Origin: an uncultured Oscillospiraceae bacterium | Lineage (GTDB): Bacteria; Bacillota; Clostridia; Oscillospirales; Oscillospiraceae | Length of the DNA stretch: 64,000 nucleotides | Direction of reading: 5' to 3' | Assembly: GCA_949841355.1 (NCBI GenBank) | Contig: CATKZP010000007.1 | Span: 62,001 to 126,000, forward strand | Notes under the pieces: generated by a model | What the model saw: the letters and a program-made list of their open reading frames with translations, nothing else | Databases searched by the model: none | What the model was told of the DNA's origin: nothing | Program-made: the position numbers and the translations under genes | Shown here: positions 244 through 33,285 of the stretch, piece after piece | How positions within the stretch are numbered: the first letter of the stretch is position 1 | Layout: each line of letters begins with the position of its first letter

Positions 244-2244
244 TTAATGATATAGCGGCCGGTTCAGCAGCGCCGGATCCAGCTCCAGTTTCGGCATCAT
301 CCGCAGCGGCTGGCCGTTTTTGTTGATGAAATACAGATTCCCCATCAGCCGCCTGGCCAGCTTCAGGCGCACCGTGTCATACTTCCCTTTGATTTTGGAA
401 ATGACTTCCTCCTGTGTGTCCTCATCCATCGCTTTTTTACCGCCGTCCTCTGCTACCTCGGCTTCGGAAAGGATATTGTTTTTCCAACTGAGGGAAATAA
501 ATTTGTTGATTTTGGTGAAGCCATCCACCCACTTTTCGATTTGTGCCTCATCCACCGGCCCGCCGTCGTAGTAGTGGAAGTCATAGCCGTAAAATTCATA
601 GGCGTCCCGCAGGCAGAACTCGATGAACGCCCGCTCCTCATCGGTGGCATAGTCGTCGTAGGTGCGGTAGACCGTGGCGGTGTCAAAGCCCACCACGTTG
701 CCCGCCGCCGTCTCCACGTCGTGGACGCCTTTCTCCGAGCAGTAGGTCATACTCTCGGTATAGGGGAGGTCCAGAAACGCCGCCAGGGCAGTGAAGGTGG
801 CCTTCGGGTTGGTCTTGCCGTCCTCAAAGCGTACCAGCACGCTGTCCTTATACAGCCGGTCTTCTGGGTCGATCATAAAGCTGCGGTTCAGGGCGCGATC
901 CATGGCCAAGTCACTGGCAACGGTGCGCTTCCCTCCCTCGGCATGAAGAAGGCTTCGCTTTTCGATCTGCCAGCGAAAGGTGGCGGCTTCACTGGTGGTG
1001 AAGCGGCGCAGGGGGGTAAATGTTTTGATATATTTGAACGCCTGGAATATTGGGGAACTGCGGATCCTGTCATATTGCTCGCACAGCAGAATAGTGCGGT
1101 CCCGTTCGCCGTGGGCCATGTCATAGTCGATATGGCTCAAGTGGGGTTGGAAAAACAGGGCGGGGGCAATGCGGGCAGCGTGGTCCAGTCCGCCCATAAA
1201 TGGGCCCTGGAGCATAAAAAGCATGACCAGAATATCTTTATCCGAGCGGTTCCCGTTCCAATAGCACTGCTGCGTCACTTCGTTATTAAAGTGCGGCAGG
1301 TTGCCTGCGGCGCGATACCTGTCCGCATCTTCAAACACCGCTTTGGCCTTTTGAATAGTTTCCTCCGTATAATCCAGCATGATGGAGGGGATGCAGATCA
1401 GATTTGGATGGTTGTCAAATACCTCGTTGAAGAAGTCGCCGCCGTTGTCGGAGGACAGCTGGGTGTGCCAGATCAACCGGTGAATGTCCCTCACGCCGAT
1501 GGACTTCACCGGATACTGGCTATAGTCGATGCCATACATCTCCTTGAAATCAATGGGGTAGCGGGAGATCTCCTCCCCAAACAGAAAGACAATTTTTTTG
1601 TCCTCCAACATACGGCGCATATTCAGCACCTGCAAATGGGCGCAGAACACCTCCCAGCTTGCGTAGTGAAGGTAAAGATGATTTTCCCGCCCGATATCCT
1701 CGCTGGGGCGGACGTTGTCAGCCAAGTATTCCAGCTCATACTGGGAATAAACATCCTTTGCCAGGATGGGATTGTCCAAGTTTTTGAAAAAGTTTCGGCT
1801 CACCACCGGGTGGTTGTAGTTCACATAGCTGCCAAACTCCCCCTTTTCCAGGTCAAAGGGCAGGTAGCCGTTGTCGTCAAAGGGATAAAAACGCAGGGGC
1901 AAGTCCTCAAATTTTGGGAAGTCCCGCCGGAATAAATAGGAATATTTGGCCAGCGCCGCGCAGTTTTTCTCATACCGGGACTTCATCAGCTTTACGTTGG
2001 GCTCAAAAAATGCCTGGGTCATAATGTCCAGGCACTCCTCCCGGAACTGTCCCTCATGATAGAGCTGGGTGAACTGGGTGTAGGCCACCTTGTAGTCCCC
2101 GTCCATGCGAAGCAGATAGACGGCGGCCTCCATCCGCTCCTCTGGGGTCAGCCCGCCCTGGTGAAGCGCCAGAACATAGGCGTTATTGGCGTCGTTGACA
2201 GCGTTCAGCTCCGCGCACCGGCGGGCAATGTCGATGGTCTGCAT
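244..2244 (-). CDS. Large sulfotransferase-like protein next to flagellin
   Basis: This 666-residue protein has no signal peptide or membrane segment. Residues about 258-283 (QLSSDNGGDFFNEVFDNHP) resemble the 5'-phosphosulfate loop region of sulfotransferases (SGTT..L..LLD.HP), although the usual RSGTT is degenerate. Residues about 468-492 (VLVRFEDGKTNP followed by a FLDLPY segment) match the typical V.RYEDL..DP...L..F.GLP block, and a KG motif follows near residue 506. The first 80 residues are helical and TPR-like. The neighbour downstream is an APS-kinase-like gene and the neighbour upstream is flagellin, so transfer of sulfate to a flagellin or surface glycan is a reasonable inference. 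The sequence alone does not prove the chemistry. Confidence 0.5.
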   Translation of the reverse strand: MQTIDIARRCAELNAVNDANNAYVLALHQGGLTPEERMEAAVYLLRMDGDYKVAYTQFTQLYHEGQFREECLDIMTQAFFEPNVKLMKSRYEKNCAALAKYSYLFRRDFPKFEDLPLRFYPFDDNGYLPFDLEKGEFGSYVNYNHPVVSRNFFKNLDNPILAKDVYSQYELEYLADNVRPSEDIGRENHLYLHYASWEVFCAHLQVLNMRRMLEDKKIVFLFGEEISRYPIDFKEMYGIDYSQYPVKSIGVRDIHRLIWHTQLSSDNGGDFFNEVFDNHPNLICIPSIMLDYTEETIQKAKAVFEDADRYRAAGNLPHFNNEVTQQCYWNGNRSDKDILVMLFMLQGPFMGGLDHAARIAPALFFQPHLSHIDYDMAHGERDRTILLCEQYDRIRSSPIFQAFKYIKTFTPLRRFTTSEAATFRWQIEKRSLLHAEGGKRTVASDLAMDRALNRSFMIDPEDRLYKDSVLVRFEDGKTNPKATFTALAAFLDLPYTESMTYCSEKGVHDVETAAGNVVGFDTATVYRTYDDYATDEERAFIEFCLRDAYEFYGYDFHYYDGGPVDEAQIEKWVDGFTKINKFISLSWKNNILSEAEVAEDGGKKAMDEDTQEEVISKIKGKYDTVRLKLARRLMGNLYFINKNGQPLRMMPKLELDPALLNRPLYH

Positions 2245-2477: not shown

Positions 2478-4202
2478 TTACTGCAGCAGCTGCAGCACGC
2501 CCTGGGGAACCTGGTTGGCCTGAGCCAGCATGGCCTGAGCGGACTGGATCAGGATGTTGTTCTTGGTGTAGGCCATCATCTCCTCGGCCACGTCCACGTC
2601 GCGGATGGTAGACTCGGCGTCCTGGATGTTCTCGGTCATCACGGACAGGTTGTTGATGGTGTGGTCCAGACGGTTCTGGGTAGCGCCCAGAGTACCACGC
2701 ACGTCAGACACCTTGTTTATCGCCTTCTTAATCATATCGATGGCCTTGGTGGCGTCAGCCTGGTTGGCGACGCTCAGACCGGCGATGCCCAGGGAAGAGC
2801 AGTGCATATCGTCGATGTTCACCTGCAGCTGGTTGAAGGGGTCGGCGGTGTCGCCAATCTGCAGGGTCAGGGCCTTGCCGCCGCCTGCGGCCTTGGTGAA
2901 CTGCACCACGCTGTTGCCGGTCTTGAGGTTCTTCCAGGTGGCGTCGGTCTCATTGCCAGTGGTACCCTGGAGGTCCCAGGTCTTGTAGTCAGTCAGAGCG
3001 CCAGCCTTCTCGGTCAGGCGGACGGTGCCGTCCGTGCCGATGGTCTGGATGTGGAACTTATCGTCATTCTGCTGGGACAACACCTTGGCAGCCTCGGCGG
3101 CGATGCCCGTGGAACCCGCCTCAAACTTGCTCAGGTCAATGACGGTGCCGCCGGAGCCCTTGCCGTCGGCGCCCACCTTGAAGGTGTAGACGTTGCCGCC
3201 AATGGTGATGCTGGCGCCGTCCTTGATGTCGGCGTCGGTCAGCTTGAACTCGCCCTGGGCCAGCTTCTCTTTGCTGGCCGCGGCCACCGGCTTAGTCGCG
3301 TGGACGGCGAAGTCATGGCCGTTGTTGTGGCCCGTCGCATCGGCACCCAAATCCACATTGACGCTCAGGTCGGTGCCGTTGAAGGTCTCCACGTCGGCCG
3401 CGGTGGGATCGGCGCCGCCCTTGCCGGTACCGGTCAGGGTAAATACGCCACCAGCAAAGTTGAGGTTGAAATCAAGGCCGCCAAGGGTAACGCTGGTAGC
3501 GGCGGCGGAGAACGCGAAGGCAGCCGTCGTCAGGGTCGCGGCGGCATCGCTGGCAGTGCGGGCAGCAGCAAGTTTAATGGTGCCCAAGGTCACGCCGGCG
3601 ACAGTTATGGTCGCAAGGACAGTATTCGCGGCGATACTTCCGGCAGCCACGTCGATCTTCAGGTCGCTCATGTCGATTCCATACGTGCCCTTTTCCGCAG
3701 TCTGACCGTTGCCGCGCAGACCGTCGGCCACGGCGGTGACGGTCATGTCGGCGGGAGCGGCGGCCCCGGCGTTCGCGCTCATAGAGCCGTCCAGCAGCTT
3801 GATGCCGTTGAAGTTGGAGGAGTCAGCGATGCGGTTGATTTCGTCCCGCAGCTGCTCAACTTCCTTCTGCAGCTGGGCGCGGTCGGTGCTGTCCTCGTAG
3901 GTGCCGTTGGCGGACTGGGTGGCCAGCTCCACCATACGGTTGAGCATGTCGTGAACCTCAGTCAGAGCGCCCTCGGCGGTCTGCACCAGGGAGATGCCGT
4001 CCTTGGCGTTCTTCTGAGCGGTCTCCAGGCCGGTGATCTGAGCACGCATCTTCTCGGAAATGGCCAGACCGGCGGCGTCGTCACCGGCGCGGTTGATCCT
4101 GTAACCAGAGGAGAGCTTCTCCAGGTTCTTCTTCATGGCGGAGACGTTGTTGGTGTAGTTCCGGTAGGCATTCATAGCCATAATATTGTGCTGAATACGC
4201 AT
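2478..4202 (-). CDS. fliC: Flagellin with long variable central domain
   Basis: This 574-residue protein is the flagellar filament subunit, exported by the flagellar type III apparatus. The N-terminal 140 residues (starting MRIQHNIMAMNAYRN, with KLSSGYRINRAGDDAAGLAI) and the C-terminal 90 residues (ending AMLAQANQVPQGVLQLLQ) are the conserved D0/D1 coiled coils. Between them lie about 330 residues of Ala/Gly/Thr-rich D2/D3 surface sequence, longer than in Bacillus Hag (about 300 residues in total). The start follows an AAAAGGAG ribosome site. The gene lies 155 bases after csrA on the same strand and ends at a strong terminator. Confidence 0.97.
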   Translation of the reverse strand: MRIQHNIMAMNAYRNYTNNVSAMKKNLEKLSSGYRINRAGDDAAGLAISEKMRAQITGLETAQKNAKDGISLVQTAEGALTEVHDMLNRMVELATQSANGTYEDSTDRAQLQKEVEQLRDEINRIADSSNFNGIKLLDGSMSANAGAAAPADMTVTAVADGLRGNGQTAEKGTYGIDMSDLKIDVAAGSIAANTVLATITVAGVTLGTIKLAAARTASDAAATLTTAAFAFSAAATSVTLGGLDFNLNFAGGVFTLTGTGKGGADPTAADVETFNGTDLSVNVDLGADATGHNNGHDFAVHATKPVAAASKEKLAQGEFKLTDADIKDGASITIGGNVYTFKVGADGKGSGGTVIDLSKFEAGSTGIAAEAAKVLSQQNDDKFHIQTIGTDGTVRLTEKAGALTDYKTWDLQGTTGNETDATWKNLKTGNSVVQFTKAAGGGKALTLQIGDTADPFNQLQVNIDDMHCSSLGIAGLSVANQADATKAIDMIKKAINKVSDVRGTLGATQNRLDHTINNLSVMTENIQDAESTIRDVDVAEEMMAYTKNNILIQSAQAMLAQANQVPQGVLQLLQ

Positions 4203-4245
4203 TGAAATAAACTCCTTTTAAAAATTATTTTGTGCGCTTTGGCCT

Positions 4246-4257
4246 TCCATTGCCTCC
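4246..4257 (-). promoter_or_regulatory. GGA motifs in flagellin leader, candidate CsrA sites
   Basis: The csrA-fliC intergenic RNA carries GGA triplets at 4257-4255 and 4248-4246, and a further one in the ribosome site at 4215-4213. CsrA dimers bind paired GGA motifs, and in Bacillus the flagellin leader is a known CsrA target. The pairing and the location beside csrA suggest the same control here; this is inference. Confidence 0.35.
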
Positions 4258-4323
4258 GCGCATAGAACTTCCGGCCCGACTGAGCGGCCTTGGCCTTGGC
4301 CGCGCGGTCCGTCCGGCGCTGGG

Positions 4324-4357: not shown

Positions 4358-4579
4358 CTAAATGGGGTTGTCGGTCTTGTGGCCCTTTGGGGGAACCTGG
4401 GCCAGCTTTGCCGGAGGCTTTGCGCCTTCCCGCTCCCGCACCGCGCCGCGCACGACGGGGATTTCCCTGGGCGCGTCGATGGCGAGGTAGGCCCGCCCGC
4501 TTTCCGCGCGGTACACCTGCACCACCACATTCTCCCCGATGGTAAGGTACTCGCCGGGGGCGAGGGACAGCTTCAGCAT
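4358..4579 (-). CDS. csrA: Divergent CsrA-family RNA-binding regulator
   Basis: The 73-residue protein starts MLKLSLAPGEYLTIGENVVV and continues with YLAIDAPREIPVVRGAV, which is the CsrA beta-sheet fold with the invariant IGENV and AP.E..V.R blocks. Leu4 and the Arg of VVRG, both used for RNA contact, are kept, but the usual Arg-Lys pair after residue 5 (LTRKxGE) is replaced by LAP. CsrA represses flagellin translation in Bacillus. The gene sits between the resolvase-like gene (18 bases upstream) and flagellin and has a strong GAGGAGG ribosome site. No fliW partner is in this window. Confidence 0.8.
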   Translation of the reverse strand: MLKLSLAPGEYLTIGENVVVQVYRAESGRAYLAIDAPREIPVVRGAVREREGAKPPAKLAQVPPKGHKTDNPI

Positions 4580-4597: not shown

Positions 4598-5011
4598 TCA
4601 CACTGCGCGGCTTTCCGACTGCTGCTCCCGGCGCAGAGCGATATTATAGAACGTCCCACGAGCCATATCACAGGCTTCCGCCGCTTTTTTGAGGGAAATC
4701 CGTCCCTCACGCCACGCCTGGTGGAGCTCGTCGAAATTATCCGGCACCGGCCTGGCCGTCCGTCCGAAGCGAACGCCTCGGGCTTTGGCGGCGGCGATGC
4801 CCTCCGCCTGCTTCTGGCGGCGGTCCTCCCTGCGCTGCTGCTCCGCCAGCTCAAAGAACAGCTCAGACACAAAATCGCTGAGCAGCGCCCTGCCGCTGGC
4901 TGCGTCCACAGCGGACAGACTGGCGGCAATATCCTGCGCCAGCATTTTCAGCTCAGCCTGCAAGCGCTCCTCGTCGGGATTTTGGATTGTGCGGTTCTGC
5001 TCTGCCAGCAT
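4598..5011 (-). CDS. Resolvase-derived HTH protein lacking catalytic domain
   Basis: Residues about 66-137 (RQKQAEGIAAAKARGVRFGR, then W..GRISLKKAAEACDMARGTFY) match the C-terminal arm and helix-turn-helix of serine resolvases and invertases. The catalytic domain with its nucleophilic Ser is absent: the 137-residue frame begins with a helical region of unrelated sequence, and only 60 bases separate its start from the inverted repeat upstream. It is the first gene after the predicted invertible sigma-28 promoter and precedes csrA and fliC. It may act as a DNA-binding regulator or accessory factor at the switch. It cannot itself catalyse serine recombination as far as can be seen. Confidence 0.7.
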   Translation of the reverse strand: MLAEQNRTIQNPDEERLQAELKMLAQDIAASLSAVDAASGRALLSDFVSELFFELAEQQRREDRRQKQAEGIAAAKARGVRFGRTARPVPDNFDELHQAWREGRISLKKAAEACDMARGTFYNIALRREQQSESRAV

Positions 5012-5061
5012 GGCTGATCTCCTTCACGCTGTCCTTGATGTTTGCGCCGCGCGGCCAGGCT

Positions 5062-5100
5062 GTTCAAAAAGTATAGGTTCTGCGCACCGATTTTTTGAAC
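5062..5100. repeat. 9-bp dyad surrounding left inverted repeat
   Basis: GTTCAAAAA (5062-5070) and TTTTTGAAC (5092-5100) are a perfect dyad enclosing the left switch repeat. One arm is outside the putative invertible segment and the other inside it, so the dyad would exist only in the present orientation and would form a hairpin in the leader of the ON transcript. Confidence 0.5.
5073..5088 (+). repeat. Left inverted repeat of the switch
   Basis: ATAGGTTCTGCGCACC, matching base for base the reverse complement of 5186-5201. Confidence 0.95.
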
Positions 5101-5123
5101 CTTCCGTGTGGCCGTTCAATTAC

Positions 5124-5151
5124 TTATTCGGCAGGTTTTTAAAAAAGTTTA
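5124..5151 (-). promoter_or_regulatory. Sigma-28/sigma-D flagellar promoter
   Basis: On the minus strand TAAA (5151-5148) is followed after 15 bases by GCCGAATAA (5132-5124), close to the sigma-D consensus TAAA-N15-GCCGATAT. It would start transcription near 5115, giving a leader of about 100 bases before the resolvase-like gene, and it lies wholly inside the candidate invertible segment. Confidence 0.75.
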
Positions 5152-5185
5152 GCCCATATGAGAAAAATTTTTAACTCCGACCATG

Positions 5186-5201
5186 GGTGCGCAGAACCTA
5201 T
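5186..5201 (-). repeat. Right inverted repeat of the switch
   Basis: The exact inverted copy of 5073-5088. The flanking bases outside both repeats do not match, which sets the repeat length at 16 bp. Confidence 0.95.
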
Positions 5202-5237
5202 GGAATTTGCACATCTCTTTCATGTGAAATAGGTATT

Positions 5238-5273
5238 AAAAAGCCTGCTGAACTGGTTTCAGCAGGCTTTTTT
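5238..5273. terminator. Bidirectional terminator beside the switch
   Basis: A 10-bp GC-rich stem, GCCTGCTGAA (5243-5252) with TTCAGCAGGC (5258-5267), is flanked by A5 on one side and T6 on the other. It insulates the spore-protein gene from the switch and would stop transcripts if the promoter were inverted. Confidence 0.9.
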
Positions 5274-5328
5274 CTTCGGCGTAATGCACACCCTTGAGTC
5301 CGCCGGCAGAGGCCTTTAAAAAGGTAAA

Positions 5329-12246: not shown

Positions 12247-12270
12247 GGTTTTAGGCGGTTTTGACCGCTT

Positions 12271-12432
12271 AGAAGCTGTACCAATCGCCTCAGCACCCAG
12301 CTTTCCGGCCCAAATTGCCGCTGGCTGCGTTGAAAAATCTTGAAATACACCAAGTATTCCCGCGATTTTTCGCCTTGCCGCCGGCAATTTTGGCTCACGA
12401 ATCTGAATACTTCAGCTATTGGTACAGCTTCT
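12271..12432. repeat. 162-bp imperfect palindrome, MITE/REP-like
   Basis: The ends are a perfect 15-bp inverted repeat (AGAAGCTGTACCAAT at 12271-12285, complement at 12418-12432). Further nested complementary blocks inside (CCCAAATTGCCG with CGGCAATTTTGG, and GAAAAATC with GATTTTTC) make nearly the whole unit one long hairpin. There is no coding frame. It fills most of the gap before the permease gene and could be a miniature inverted-repeat element. Confidence 0.65.
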
Positions 12433-12497
12433 TAAAATAAAGCGGCGCCGCGCATACCGCGCGGCACAGGAAACATCAAGAAAGAGGAGGAAACATT

Positions 12498-31156: not shown

Positions 31157-31729
31157 ATGCTGGCAGTGCAGACAACACAAGAGGAGCAATCCTGCGGGAA
31201 CCGGGAGCTGGAACAGCTCCTGCTCCGGGTGGGGCAGGGCGACCGGGACGCCTTTGCCCTGCTGTACGAACGCACCCGGGGGGCAGTGTACGCCATGGCG
31301 CTGTCCCTGCTTCACGACGCCCACGAGGCCCAGGATACGGCCCAGGACACCTTCGTCCGGGTGTGGGAAAGCGCCCCCGCTTACCGCCCCCAGGGCTCGC
31401 CCATGGCCTGGCTCCTCACCATCGCCCGCAATTTGGCCCAGACCCGGCTGCGCCGGAGCGGGCGGCAGGTGGAGCTGGACGAGGAGGCCTGGAACGCCAT
31501 TCCCACCCAGGCCCCCGGCATCTCCCCCGAGGACCGGCAGCTGCTCCAAGCGGCCCTGGCTGGGCTGGGCGCGGAGGAACGGCGCATCATCCTGCTCCAT
31601 GCCGTGGCGGGGCTCAAGCACCGGGAGATCGCCCGGCTGCTGGAACGGCCGCTGTCCACTATCCTGTCCAAATACCACCGCGGGCTGGCCAAGCTGCGCG
31701 GCCTGATGAAAGGAGAGTGCGCCCAATGA
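31157..31729 (+). CDS. ECF-type RNA polymerase sigma factor
   Basis: The 190-residue protein has region 2 (FALLYERTRGAVYAMALSLL, then DAQDTFVRVW with the -10 recognition helix) and region 4 (LGAEERRIILLHAVAGLKHR, EIARLLERPLSTI) joined by a short linker, the layout of extracytoplasmic-function sigma factors. The ATG at 31157 follows AGGAG with nine bases of spacing. Its stop overlaps the start of a membrane anti-sigma factor (ATGA), so the two are coupled and the sigma factor is probably held at the membrane until a signal arrives. Confidence 0.92.
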   Translation: MLAVQTTQEEQSCGNRELEQLLLRVGQGDRDAFALLYERTRGAVYAMALSLLHDAHEAQDTAQDTFVRVWESAPAYRPQGSPMAWLLTIARNLAQTRLRRSGRQVELDEEAWNAIPTQAPGISPEDRQLLQAALAGLGAEERRIILLHAVAGLKHREIARLLERPLSTILSKYHRGLAKLRGLMKGECAQ

Positions 31730-33285
31730 CTGACCGGGAACTGGAGCAGCGTCTGGCCCAGGCCGTGTCCCGAGCGGCCCCGGACGATCTGGACGCGATT
31801 CTCTCCCGCTGCGGTGCACAAAACGGGAGCGTGATGAATATGAAGCCGCAAAACATTGTCGATCTGGCCGCGACCAGAGAAACGAAAAAGAAACGGACAG
31901 CCCGGTCGTGGGCAGCCGCCGCCTGCGCGGCGCTGGTGCTGCTGGGGGCGGGCGGCTTTCTGGGGTACTATTACCAAAACTGCACCGTGGCCTCGGTGGT
32001 GTCCCTGGACGTCAACCCCAGCATAGAGCTGAAGGTCAGCCAGAGTAAGCGGGTCATCTCCTGCGCCGCCCTCAATCAGGACGCCGCCGCCGTGCTGTTC
32101 TCCATGGACGGCGGGGCCGACCTCAAGGGCGCCAAGCTGGACGTGGCGGTGAACGCCATTGTGGGCGCGCTGGTGCAGGCGGGATATATGGACAGCATCT
32201 CCTCCGCCATTCTGATCTCGGTGGAGGACAGCGATCAGGCCCGAGCCGCCCGGCTTCAGCAGGAGCTGGTGGCCTCGGTGGACGGAGTGCTTCAGCATCA
32301 GGCCCCGGGCACCTCGGTGTTCAGCCAGGTGCTCACCCATGACGCCCAAACCTCCGCGCCGGAGTATGACGCCTTCAACACCGGCATTTCCACCGGAAAG
32401 GCGGCTCTCGTCCGCCGGGTGATGGAGATGAACGGCACGCTGGCCCTCAGCAGCACCGCCGCCTTCGACCAGCTGGCAGCCCTGTCGGTGGAGGAGCTGG
32501 AGGACCTGCTGGAAACGGGCGAGACCCGCATCCCCATCGGCAAAAGCGCCGCCGCCCTGGCCGCCGAGGAGTACGCGGGCACCCTGGAGCTCAACTCCGT
32601 GACCACCGACGTGGACCCGGAGCTGGACGAAAACCCCGCCCACTACGAGGTGGAGTTCAAAACCGCCTGGGGTGAGTTTGAGTATATTGTGGACGCCTTC
32701 ACGGGGCAGGTGCTGAGCGGGCCGAGGGATGTGCTGAGCTTGGCCCCCGGCGCCAGCACCCCAGCTCCCGCCCCCGCTCCCAGCCCCGAGCCCTCCCCTG
32801 CCGTCACAGCGCCGCCGCCCGCCGAAACCGCCGCGCAGGACGTGGGCCGGGATGCCGCCCTGGCAGCCGCCCTGACTCACGCCGGGCTCAGCGAATCCCA
32901 GATCACCGGGCTGAAGGTCGAGCAGGACTGGGACGACGGCCGGCTGGAGTACGAGGTGACATTCTGGTGCGGCGGCACGGAATACGACTACACCATTGAC
33001 GGCTATTCCTGCTCCGTCCTCAAGTACGAGCAGGAGCGTCACACCGAAGATCCTCCCGGCGGGTCCCCGCCCACTGCGGATATCGGCGCGGAGGGCGCCA
33101 AGGCCGCCGCCCTGGCCCACGCCGGGGTCTCCGAGAACCAGACCACCAAAATGGAGGTGGAGCGGGACTGGGACGACGGCCGATTGGAGTACGACGTGGA
33201 ATTTGAGGCGGGCCATATGGAATACGAATACACCATCGACGGGACTACCGGGGCGATCCTGGAGTACGAGCAGGACTGGGACTGA
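31726..33285 (+). CDS. RsgI-like membrane anti-sigma factor with PepSY repeats
   Basis: The 519-residue protein has a cytoplasmic N-terminus of about 60 residues (MTDRELEQRLAQAVSRAAPD) that should bind the sigma factor, one membrane helix (about 62-82), and an extracellular part starting with VVSLDVNPSIELKVS, the hallmark of RsgI-type anti-sigma factors. After a Pro-rich linker (about 345-370) come two clear PepSY repeats, each with WDDGRLEYEV and YDYTIDG-like strands, plus a more diverged one before the linker. RsgI proteins sense extracellular or wall signals. PepSY modules often inhibit peptidases, but their ligand here is unknown. Confidence 0.82.
   Translation: MTDRELEQRLAQAVSRAAPDDLDAILSRCGAQNGSVMNMKPQNIVDLAATRETKKKRTARSWAAAACAALVLLGAGGFLGYYYQNCTVASVVSLDVNPSIELKVSQSKRVISCAALNQDAAAVLFSMDGGADLKGAKLDVAVNAIVGALVQAGYMDSISSAILISVEDSDQARAARLQQELVASVDGVLQHQAPGTSVFSQVLTHDAQTSAPEYDAFNTGISTGKAALVRRVMEMNGTLALSSTAAFDQLAALSVEELEDLLETGETRIPIGKSAAALAAEEYAGTLELNSVTTDVDPELDENPAHYEVEFKTAWGEFEYIVDAFTGQVLSGPRDVLSLAPGASTPAPAPAPSPEPSPAVTAPPPAETAAQDVGRDAALAAALTHAGLSESQITGLKVEQDWDDGRLEYEVTFWCGGTEYDYTIDGYSCSVLKYEQERHTEDPPGGSPPTADIGAEGAKAAALAHAGVSENQTTKMEVERDWDDGRLEYDVEFEAGHMEYEYTIDGTTGAILEYEQDWD

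Follow-up and report, generated by a model that had tools for sequence, protein, structure and literature searches.

The 64-kb window analysed here, the whole 64,000-nucleotide stretch of contig C7 from an uncultured Oscillospiraceae bacterium, very probably carries a promoter inverton for flagellin, one that works or worked until recently and that stands in the ON orientation in this assembly. Two inverted recombination sites flank the promoter, a FliA-type promoter within a predicted invertible segment of 125 bp ahead of csrA and fliC (Table 1), as in loci described in passages of PMC13418256. We propose that a small serine recombinase would bind the two palindromic, AT-centred sites, and that strand exchange at their cores would flip the segment between them. 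In the present orientation the promoter would drive csrA, fliC and a gene that we call trunc (flagellin ON); in the flipped orientation it would point into a hairpin (OFF). The invertase would probably act in trans from contig C17, and the trunc product, made from the ON promoter, would probably bind recombinase-type sites as a non-catalytic dimer and compete with the invertase, so that the state of the switch is biased or held. We put the probability of this whole explanation at roughly 0.8.

Table 1. Features of the predicted switch, its operon and further genes (window positions unless another contig is named).
Feature	Position	Strand	Remarks
Left recombination site (predicted), core AT at 5073-5074	5060-5087		27.8 bits, best match in 64 kb
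Right recombination site (predicted), core AT at 5200-5201	5187-5214		25.3 bits, second best
Left arm, perfect inverted repeat	5073-5088		core + inner half-site
Right arm, perfect inverted repeat	5186-5201		core + inner half-site
Predicted invertible segment, 125 bp	5075-5199		DNA between the two cores
Sigma-28 (FliA/SigD-type) promoter, near-consensus TAAA-N15-GCCGAATAA	5151 down to 5124	-	faces trunc-csrA-fliC, ON
Hairpin, probable terminator	5238-5272		outside distal site, 15/15 pairs, loop 5
trunc ("resolvase-like" gene), serine recombinase paralogue without catalytic domain, 137 aa	4598-5011	-	long helix + HTH
csrA	4358-4579	-	Pfam CsrA 4.4e-13
fliC (flagellin)	2478-4202	-	Pfam Flagellin_N + Flagellin_C
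666-aa ORF, no family assigned	244-2244	-	downstream of fliC
C17 recombinase, candidate invertase	contig C17, matched part 31691-32257	n/a	tree grouping, motifs

Predicted recombination sites flank a flagellar promoter

The two arms (ATAGGTTCTGCGCACC) form a perfect 16-bp inverted repeat with a loop of 97 bp, as a preliminary description of this DNA had stated; the near-consensus sigma-28 promoter that it placed facing the resolvase-like gene, csrA and fliC, and the strong hairpin outside the distal repeat, were likewise found. That description had also judged a chance repeat very unlikely, and the count bears this out: dinucleotide shuffling of the window, repeated 60 times, gave a mean of 0.05 perfect inverted repeats of 14 bp with a loop of 20-150 per 64 kb, a 14-mer count to be set beside real arms of 16 bp. 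The repeat at 5073/5201 lies far beyond the shuffles. The real window holds two perfect 16-bp pairs, this one and a second at 58450-58465/58537-58552, which has a loop of 71 and overlaps mechanical ORFs.

Serine recombinases are expected to act at palindromic sites of ~28 bp with a central dinucleotide, and the repeats at six other loci (L005, L007, L033, L036, L038 and L115) are parts of such sites. We built a site matrix from the 12 sites of these six loci, with the letters of the window excluded. The two window sites ranked first and second in the 64 kb, with the third-best score at 12.9 bits (against 27.8 and 25.3), and both fall inside the range of 18.5-40.1 bits spanned by the matrix's own 12 training sites, which were placed by eye with the window's repeat already known. 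The window repeats would thus be parts of two palindromic sites of serine-recombinase type with a central AT, and comparison between loci supports both these predicted sites and the promoter between them. Their outer half-sites differ; the shared part is the core and the inner half-site. Cores, with centres placed by eye, agree in inverted orientation in 17/17 elements in which they could be placed; only L038 (AC), L034 (GT) and L116 (GT) are informative, and the AT/AT pair of the window says little because AT is self-complementary. The predicted invertible segment of the window measures 125 bp, and the 16 others whose cores could be placed range over 112-135 bp.

The folding energy of the hairpin is -22.0 kcal/mol on one strand and -22.6 kcal/mol on the other. 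Of 10 relatives inspected by eye, 8 have a hairpin at the matching place, and one also adjoins the C17 recombinase gene. A terminator pattern scan of 4950-5320 listed none, and may have missed this hairpin because its run of T lies within the stem. On the minus strand the left site is spanned by a weak sigma-70-like match (9 of 12), where 0.4 would be expected by chance; this match could yield transcription beside the switch.

A promoter pattern of the window type was present in 7 of 42 genomes. In all four of G010, G011, G022 and G040 the pattern faces fliC, with no trunc or recombinase matches there. The inverted-repeat scan covered two of these four loci: none was found round the promoter in L022 (G010), and L018 (G011) has two pairs, a GC-rich perfect one of 11 bp and an imperfect one of 14 bp.

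Homologous segments occur in both orientations

Searched as DNA in the genus, the element with its 137-aa gene gave any match in 24 of 42 genomes; the trunc protein, searched in the family, gave any match in at least 180 of 400 genomes, many of the matches being full-length recombinases by frame length; and a search of named genome contigs accounts for 9 loci. What brought a locus into the set was sequence similarity; orientation played no part. Many of the fetched loci are flagellin operons that share a common plan: a small serine recombinase, a hairpin, a site, a sigma-28 promoter and a second site, followed in varying combination by trunc, a TnpB-like gene, csrA in one or two copies and fliC.

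The preliminary description had suggested comparing orientation among sister genomes, and we ran this comparison on homologous elements from other species or paralogous loci. We aligned 17 segments, from flagellin or trunc loci whose two sites could be placed, to the window segment, with half-sites removed, genes turned to the right, and a z difference >2 required for a call. Four had the orientation of the window (L005, L007, L040 and L121), 12 were reversed (L033, L036, L038, L041, L070, L080, L081, L083, L115, L116, L117 and L119), and L034 was unclear; the weakest calls were L083, L115 and L121, with a best z of 3.2-3.6. Scoring against the promoter consensus in 19 elements, the window included, gave 5 ON, 13 OFF and 1 tie, five of these calls (L115, L117, L041, L083 and L040) resting on one point, and agreed with the alignment in 15/15 elements decided by both. 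The tie, L036, was reversed by alignment; L037, whose promoter was reversed by consensus scoring, was left out of the alignment count because its two sites could not be placed. Segments for both tests were drawn with the promoter orientation of several loci already known. The totals are not counts of independent species, because several elements come from the same genome (three from G071, two from G000, the present assembly, and two from G111, one of which, L037, enters the consensus scoring only), and they exclude L012, L016, L017, L021 and L024, where inverted repeats lie beside full-length recombinases with no flagellin matches in the fetched DNA. L070, a second flagellin module found in this assembly (contig C19), was OFF by both tests, and the window ON.

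Both orientations occur among homologous elements, a between-element comparison in which this species is represented by one genome; each flip could be old, because the comparisons run between species or paralogous loci. Homologous segments facing both ways, recombinase-type sites and recombinases beside the relatives' elements together support the invertible flagellin promoter of the preliminary description, whose present ON orientation and OFF state blocked by a terminator likewise agree with the comparative evidence. We infer that inversion would take place in this species as well.

A recombinase paralogue without the catalytic domain

The gene called resolvase-like in the preliminary description is indeed a relative of serine recombinases, but it corresponds only to their end part, a long helix and HTH, with no catalytic domain. 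Trunc also separates the element from csrA, and the switch therefore does not directly precede csrA-fliC as had been claimed. The protein has no PF00239 match, and its alignable part starts after the catalytic motifs, the catalytic Ser/Arg domain being absent. It matched no Pfam family at cut-off and no NCBIfam family; profile matches were to the C-terminal part of Sin (5.4e-08) and gamma-delta resolvase (0.0019). The predicted model consists of a long helix and an HTH (mean pLDDT 91.8, pTM 0.53), and a fold search with it found nothing at E<=0.001; its five best hits, all weak, were serine recombinases.

Comparison supports the lack of the catalytic domain in trunc. In an unrooted tree, one branch (SH-aLRT 99) separated 17/17 truncated proteins from 59 full-length recombinases, with L122, which has an internal deletion, counted in neither group and one HTH-only match of L040 dropped. 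The trees are quick ones of about 108 columns with many forks open; L042 (our genome's own C3 gene) and L121 sit on long branches and their placement is unsure. L054 (its own C1 gene) and L104 are included as well. NG86 dN/dS of trunc was 0.16-0.37 in 7 of 8 chosen pairs, with dS often >1 and the eighth pair without a usable dS. By our own reading, and L005 aside, the conserved part begins 29-47 codons after the candidate starts, most of which follow a purine-rich sequence. Matches to csrA and fliC stand beside trunc at 16 of 17 loci; at the other, L083, the contig ends 215 bases past the gene.

A candidate invertase on another contig

No hin gene lies immediately upstream of the window element, and 0 of the 23 Resolvase-domain matches in the whole genome are on contig C7. 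Four small recombinases, on C1, C3, C17 and C19, were placed in the tree. The C17 recombinase groups with six element-adjoining recombinases (SH-aLRT 98 for the shared part, 97 for full-length proteins); those on C1 and C19 fall outside this group, and the one on C3, on a long branch, resembles it only distantly. We therefore regard the C17 recombinase as the best candidate. Its identity to the G009 enzyme is 85% (83% over a longer stretch). The C17 enzyme is an intact candidate, retains the YVRVST and DRLGRNY motifs, and has Sin as its closest solved relative by sequence. The 7-kb stretch around its gene contains a hairpin resembling the one that separates enzyme and element in relatives, and holds no site of the window type (best 6.0 bits), no element and no flagellin genes. 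Since no invertase gene adjoins the window element and no such site lies in these 7 kb, the action we propose is in trans: the C17 recombinase probably serves the window element from its separate location.

Other genes and elements

The csrA of the window is a diverged copy, because it scores below NCBIfam cut-offs. No tldR is apparent in the operon, as none of the ORFs from the element to fliC has the size of one. A protein of ~670 aa follows fliC at two loci, in the window (244-2244, -) and at L073:4876-6888 (-); an ORF similar by eye to the window copy follows a fliC on contig C34. It had no Pfam match, the window copy also had no NCBIfam match, and our guess is a flagellin-modifying enzyme. 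CsrA sites are hairpins with GGA in the loop, and a small hairpin with GGA in its loop can be folded in the leaders of three of this genome's flagellin genes (4203-4290, L070:2729-2816 and L073:287-374, all on the minus strand); their folding energies are unexceptional (z -0.3 to -1.7).

On contig C19 a TnpB-like gene (L070:3298-4449, -) lies between the inverton and csrA-fliC. It is probably a TldR, because its RuvC motif residues look replaced; similar genes occur in L036, L038, L039, L040 and L041. In a search for an RNA guide, sequence downstream of the C19 gene had no exact 12-nt match to the genome's own flagellin stretches and one exact 11-nt match, to contig C34; 16-mers with 2 mismatches were rejected as guide candidates, as they occurred in a control stretch too. 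A 167-bp element in the window (12268-12434) looks like a MITE: perfect inverted repeats of 15 bp lie close to its two ends, and contig C4 has a copy (L060:3166-3332) with 95% identity.

Comparison with known switches

The predicted switch resembles the Salmonella Hin system (hixL/hixR, fljBA), in which a serine recombinase flips a promoter segment and switches flagellin with a regulator co-expressed. Salmonella hin lies within a ~1-kb segment with a Fis-bound enhancer, unlike the 125-bp segment of the window, which carries the promoter only. RecV of Clostridioides difficile is a tyrosine recombinase; the switch of that species lies upstream of the flgB operon, whereas in the window a promoter segment lies at the flagellin operon, between predicted sites of serine-recombinase type. 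The two would be alike as inversion-type control in Clostridia, passages of PMC7446863 describing DNA inversion that controls flagella in C. difficile.

The basic design is already known, since passages of PMC13418256 (Nat Microbiol 2026) describe hin genes, ~120-bp FliA-promoter inversions and csrA-tldR loci; the inversions lie downstream of hin in related loci of Flavonifractor plautii, and hin is present at "most" such loci. Our loci resemble the csrA-tldR-fliC loci of Oscillibacter and F. plautii in their small serine recombinases, ~120-bp FliA-promoter segment, csrA and flagellin, and TnpB-like genes of that type, which look nuclease-dead by their motifs, are likewise found in sister modules here, including the genome's own C19 locus. 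Unlike the published loci, as far as those passages describe them, the window module is a variant with no linked invertase or tldR, and has instead a conserved recombinase paralogue without the catalytic domain. We found no mention of such a paralogue in these passages, and their sole "resolvase" concerns a phage gin gene. The titles and abstract openings surveyed gave no other paper on one, and a gut-community inverton survey (PMC11892184), searched by term, gave no flagellar match.

Alternative explanations

The element might be a frozen inverton, flipped in the past and locked ON in this lineage since its invertase gene became separated. This would fit the missing adjoining recombinase, which L005, L007, L033, L036, L038 and L115 all have, and the C17 gene, which stands with its hairpin and without element or flagellin genes in 7 kb; we nonetheless consider it unlikely, because the scores of both sites stand well clear of background, the genome encodes an intact candidate invertase, and the perfect arms of 16 bp equal those of L041 and exceed those of L007 and L033, three loci whose element has a recombinase gene next to it. 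We find it highly improbable that the arms are instead a pair of operators, at which a DNA-binding protein loops the promoter for autoregulation with no recombination. Trunc, with its HTH and its place beside the element, would be a candidate for such a protein, but site pairs exist in L007 and L070, where no trunc was found, and looping does not explain why 12 of the 17 homologous segments are reversed relative to their genes. A working or recently working inverton remains our preferred reading.

The role of trunc within that inverton can be read in two ways. Because trunc lies behind the promoter, the ON orientation would drive it, and we infer a state-dependent, non-catalytic competitor of the invertase. 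We suggest, tentatively, that Oscillospiraceae-type gut bacteria domesticated this paralogue as a state-dependent brake on the flagellin switch, so that ON holds ON: trunc would be made when ON, would have kept the dimer helix and DNA-binding domain, and would block the invertase. A link to CsrA is seen in one genome, G034, where a CsrA domain and trunc are joined as one ORF (L005:1294-1815, +). The same fusion speaks for a different and likewise doubtful possibility, that trunc, when its module is ON, regulates other flagellin modules together with CsrA, in the manner of Salmonella FljA, and is no brake here; this concerns trunc alone and is compatible with the inverton. By our own reading the trunc HTH is at least as similar to another recombinase subgroup as to the neighbouring recombinases, which favours such a regulator and weakens the idea that trunc binds these very sites. 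Against it, the relatives of trunc are enzymes whose binding targets are recombination sites, and no target is known. Passages of PMC13418256 describe related loci whose TldR and CsrA affect other flagellins, which again would suit a regulator.

If the inverton reading is true, a gut commensal that has several flagellins would choose among them by means of separate DNA switches. With an unlinked invertase, which our proposal of trans action implies, such a switch can be missed when only neighbouring genes are examined. As to how the switch might be given a memory, the conserved recombinase paralogue that lacks the catalytic domain offers a testable candidate.
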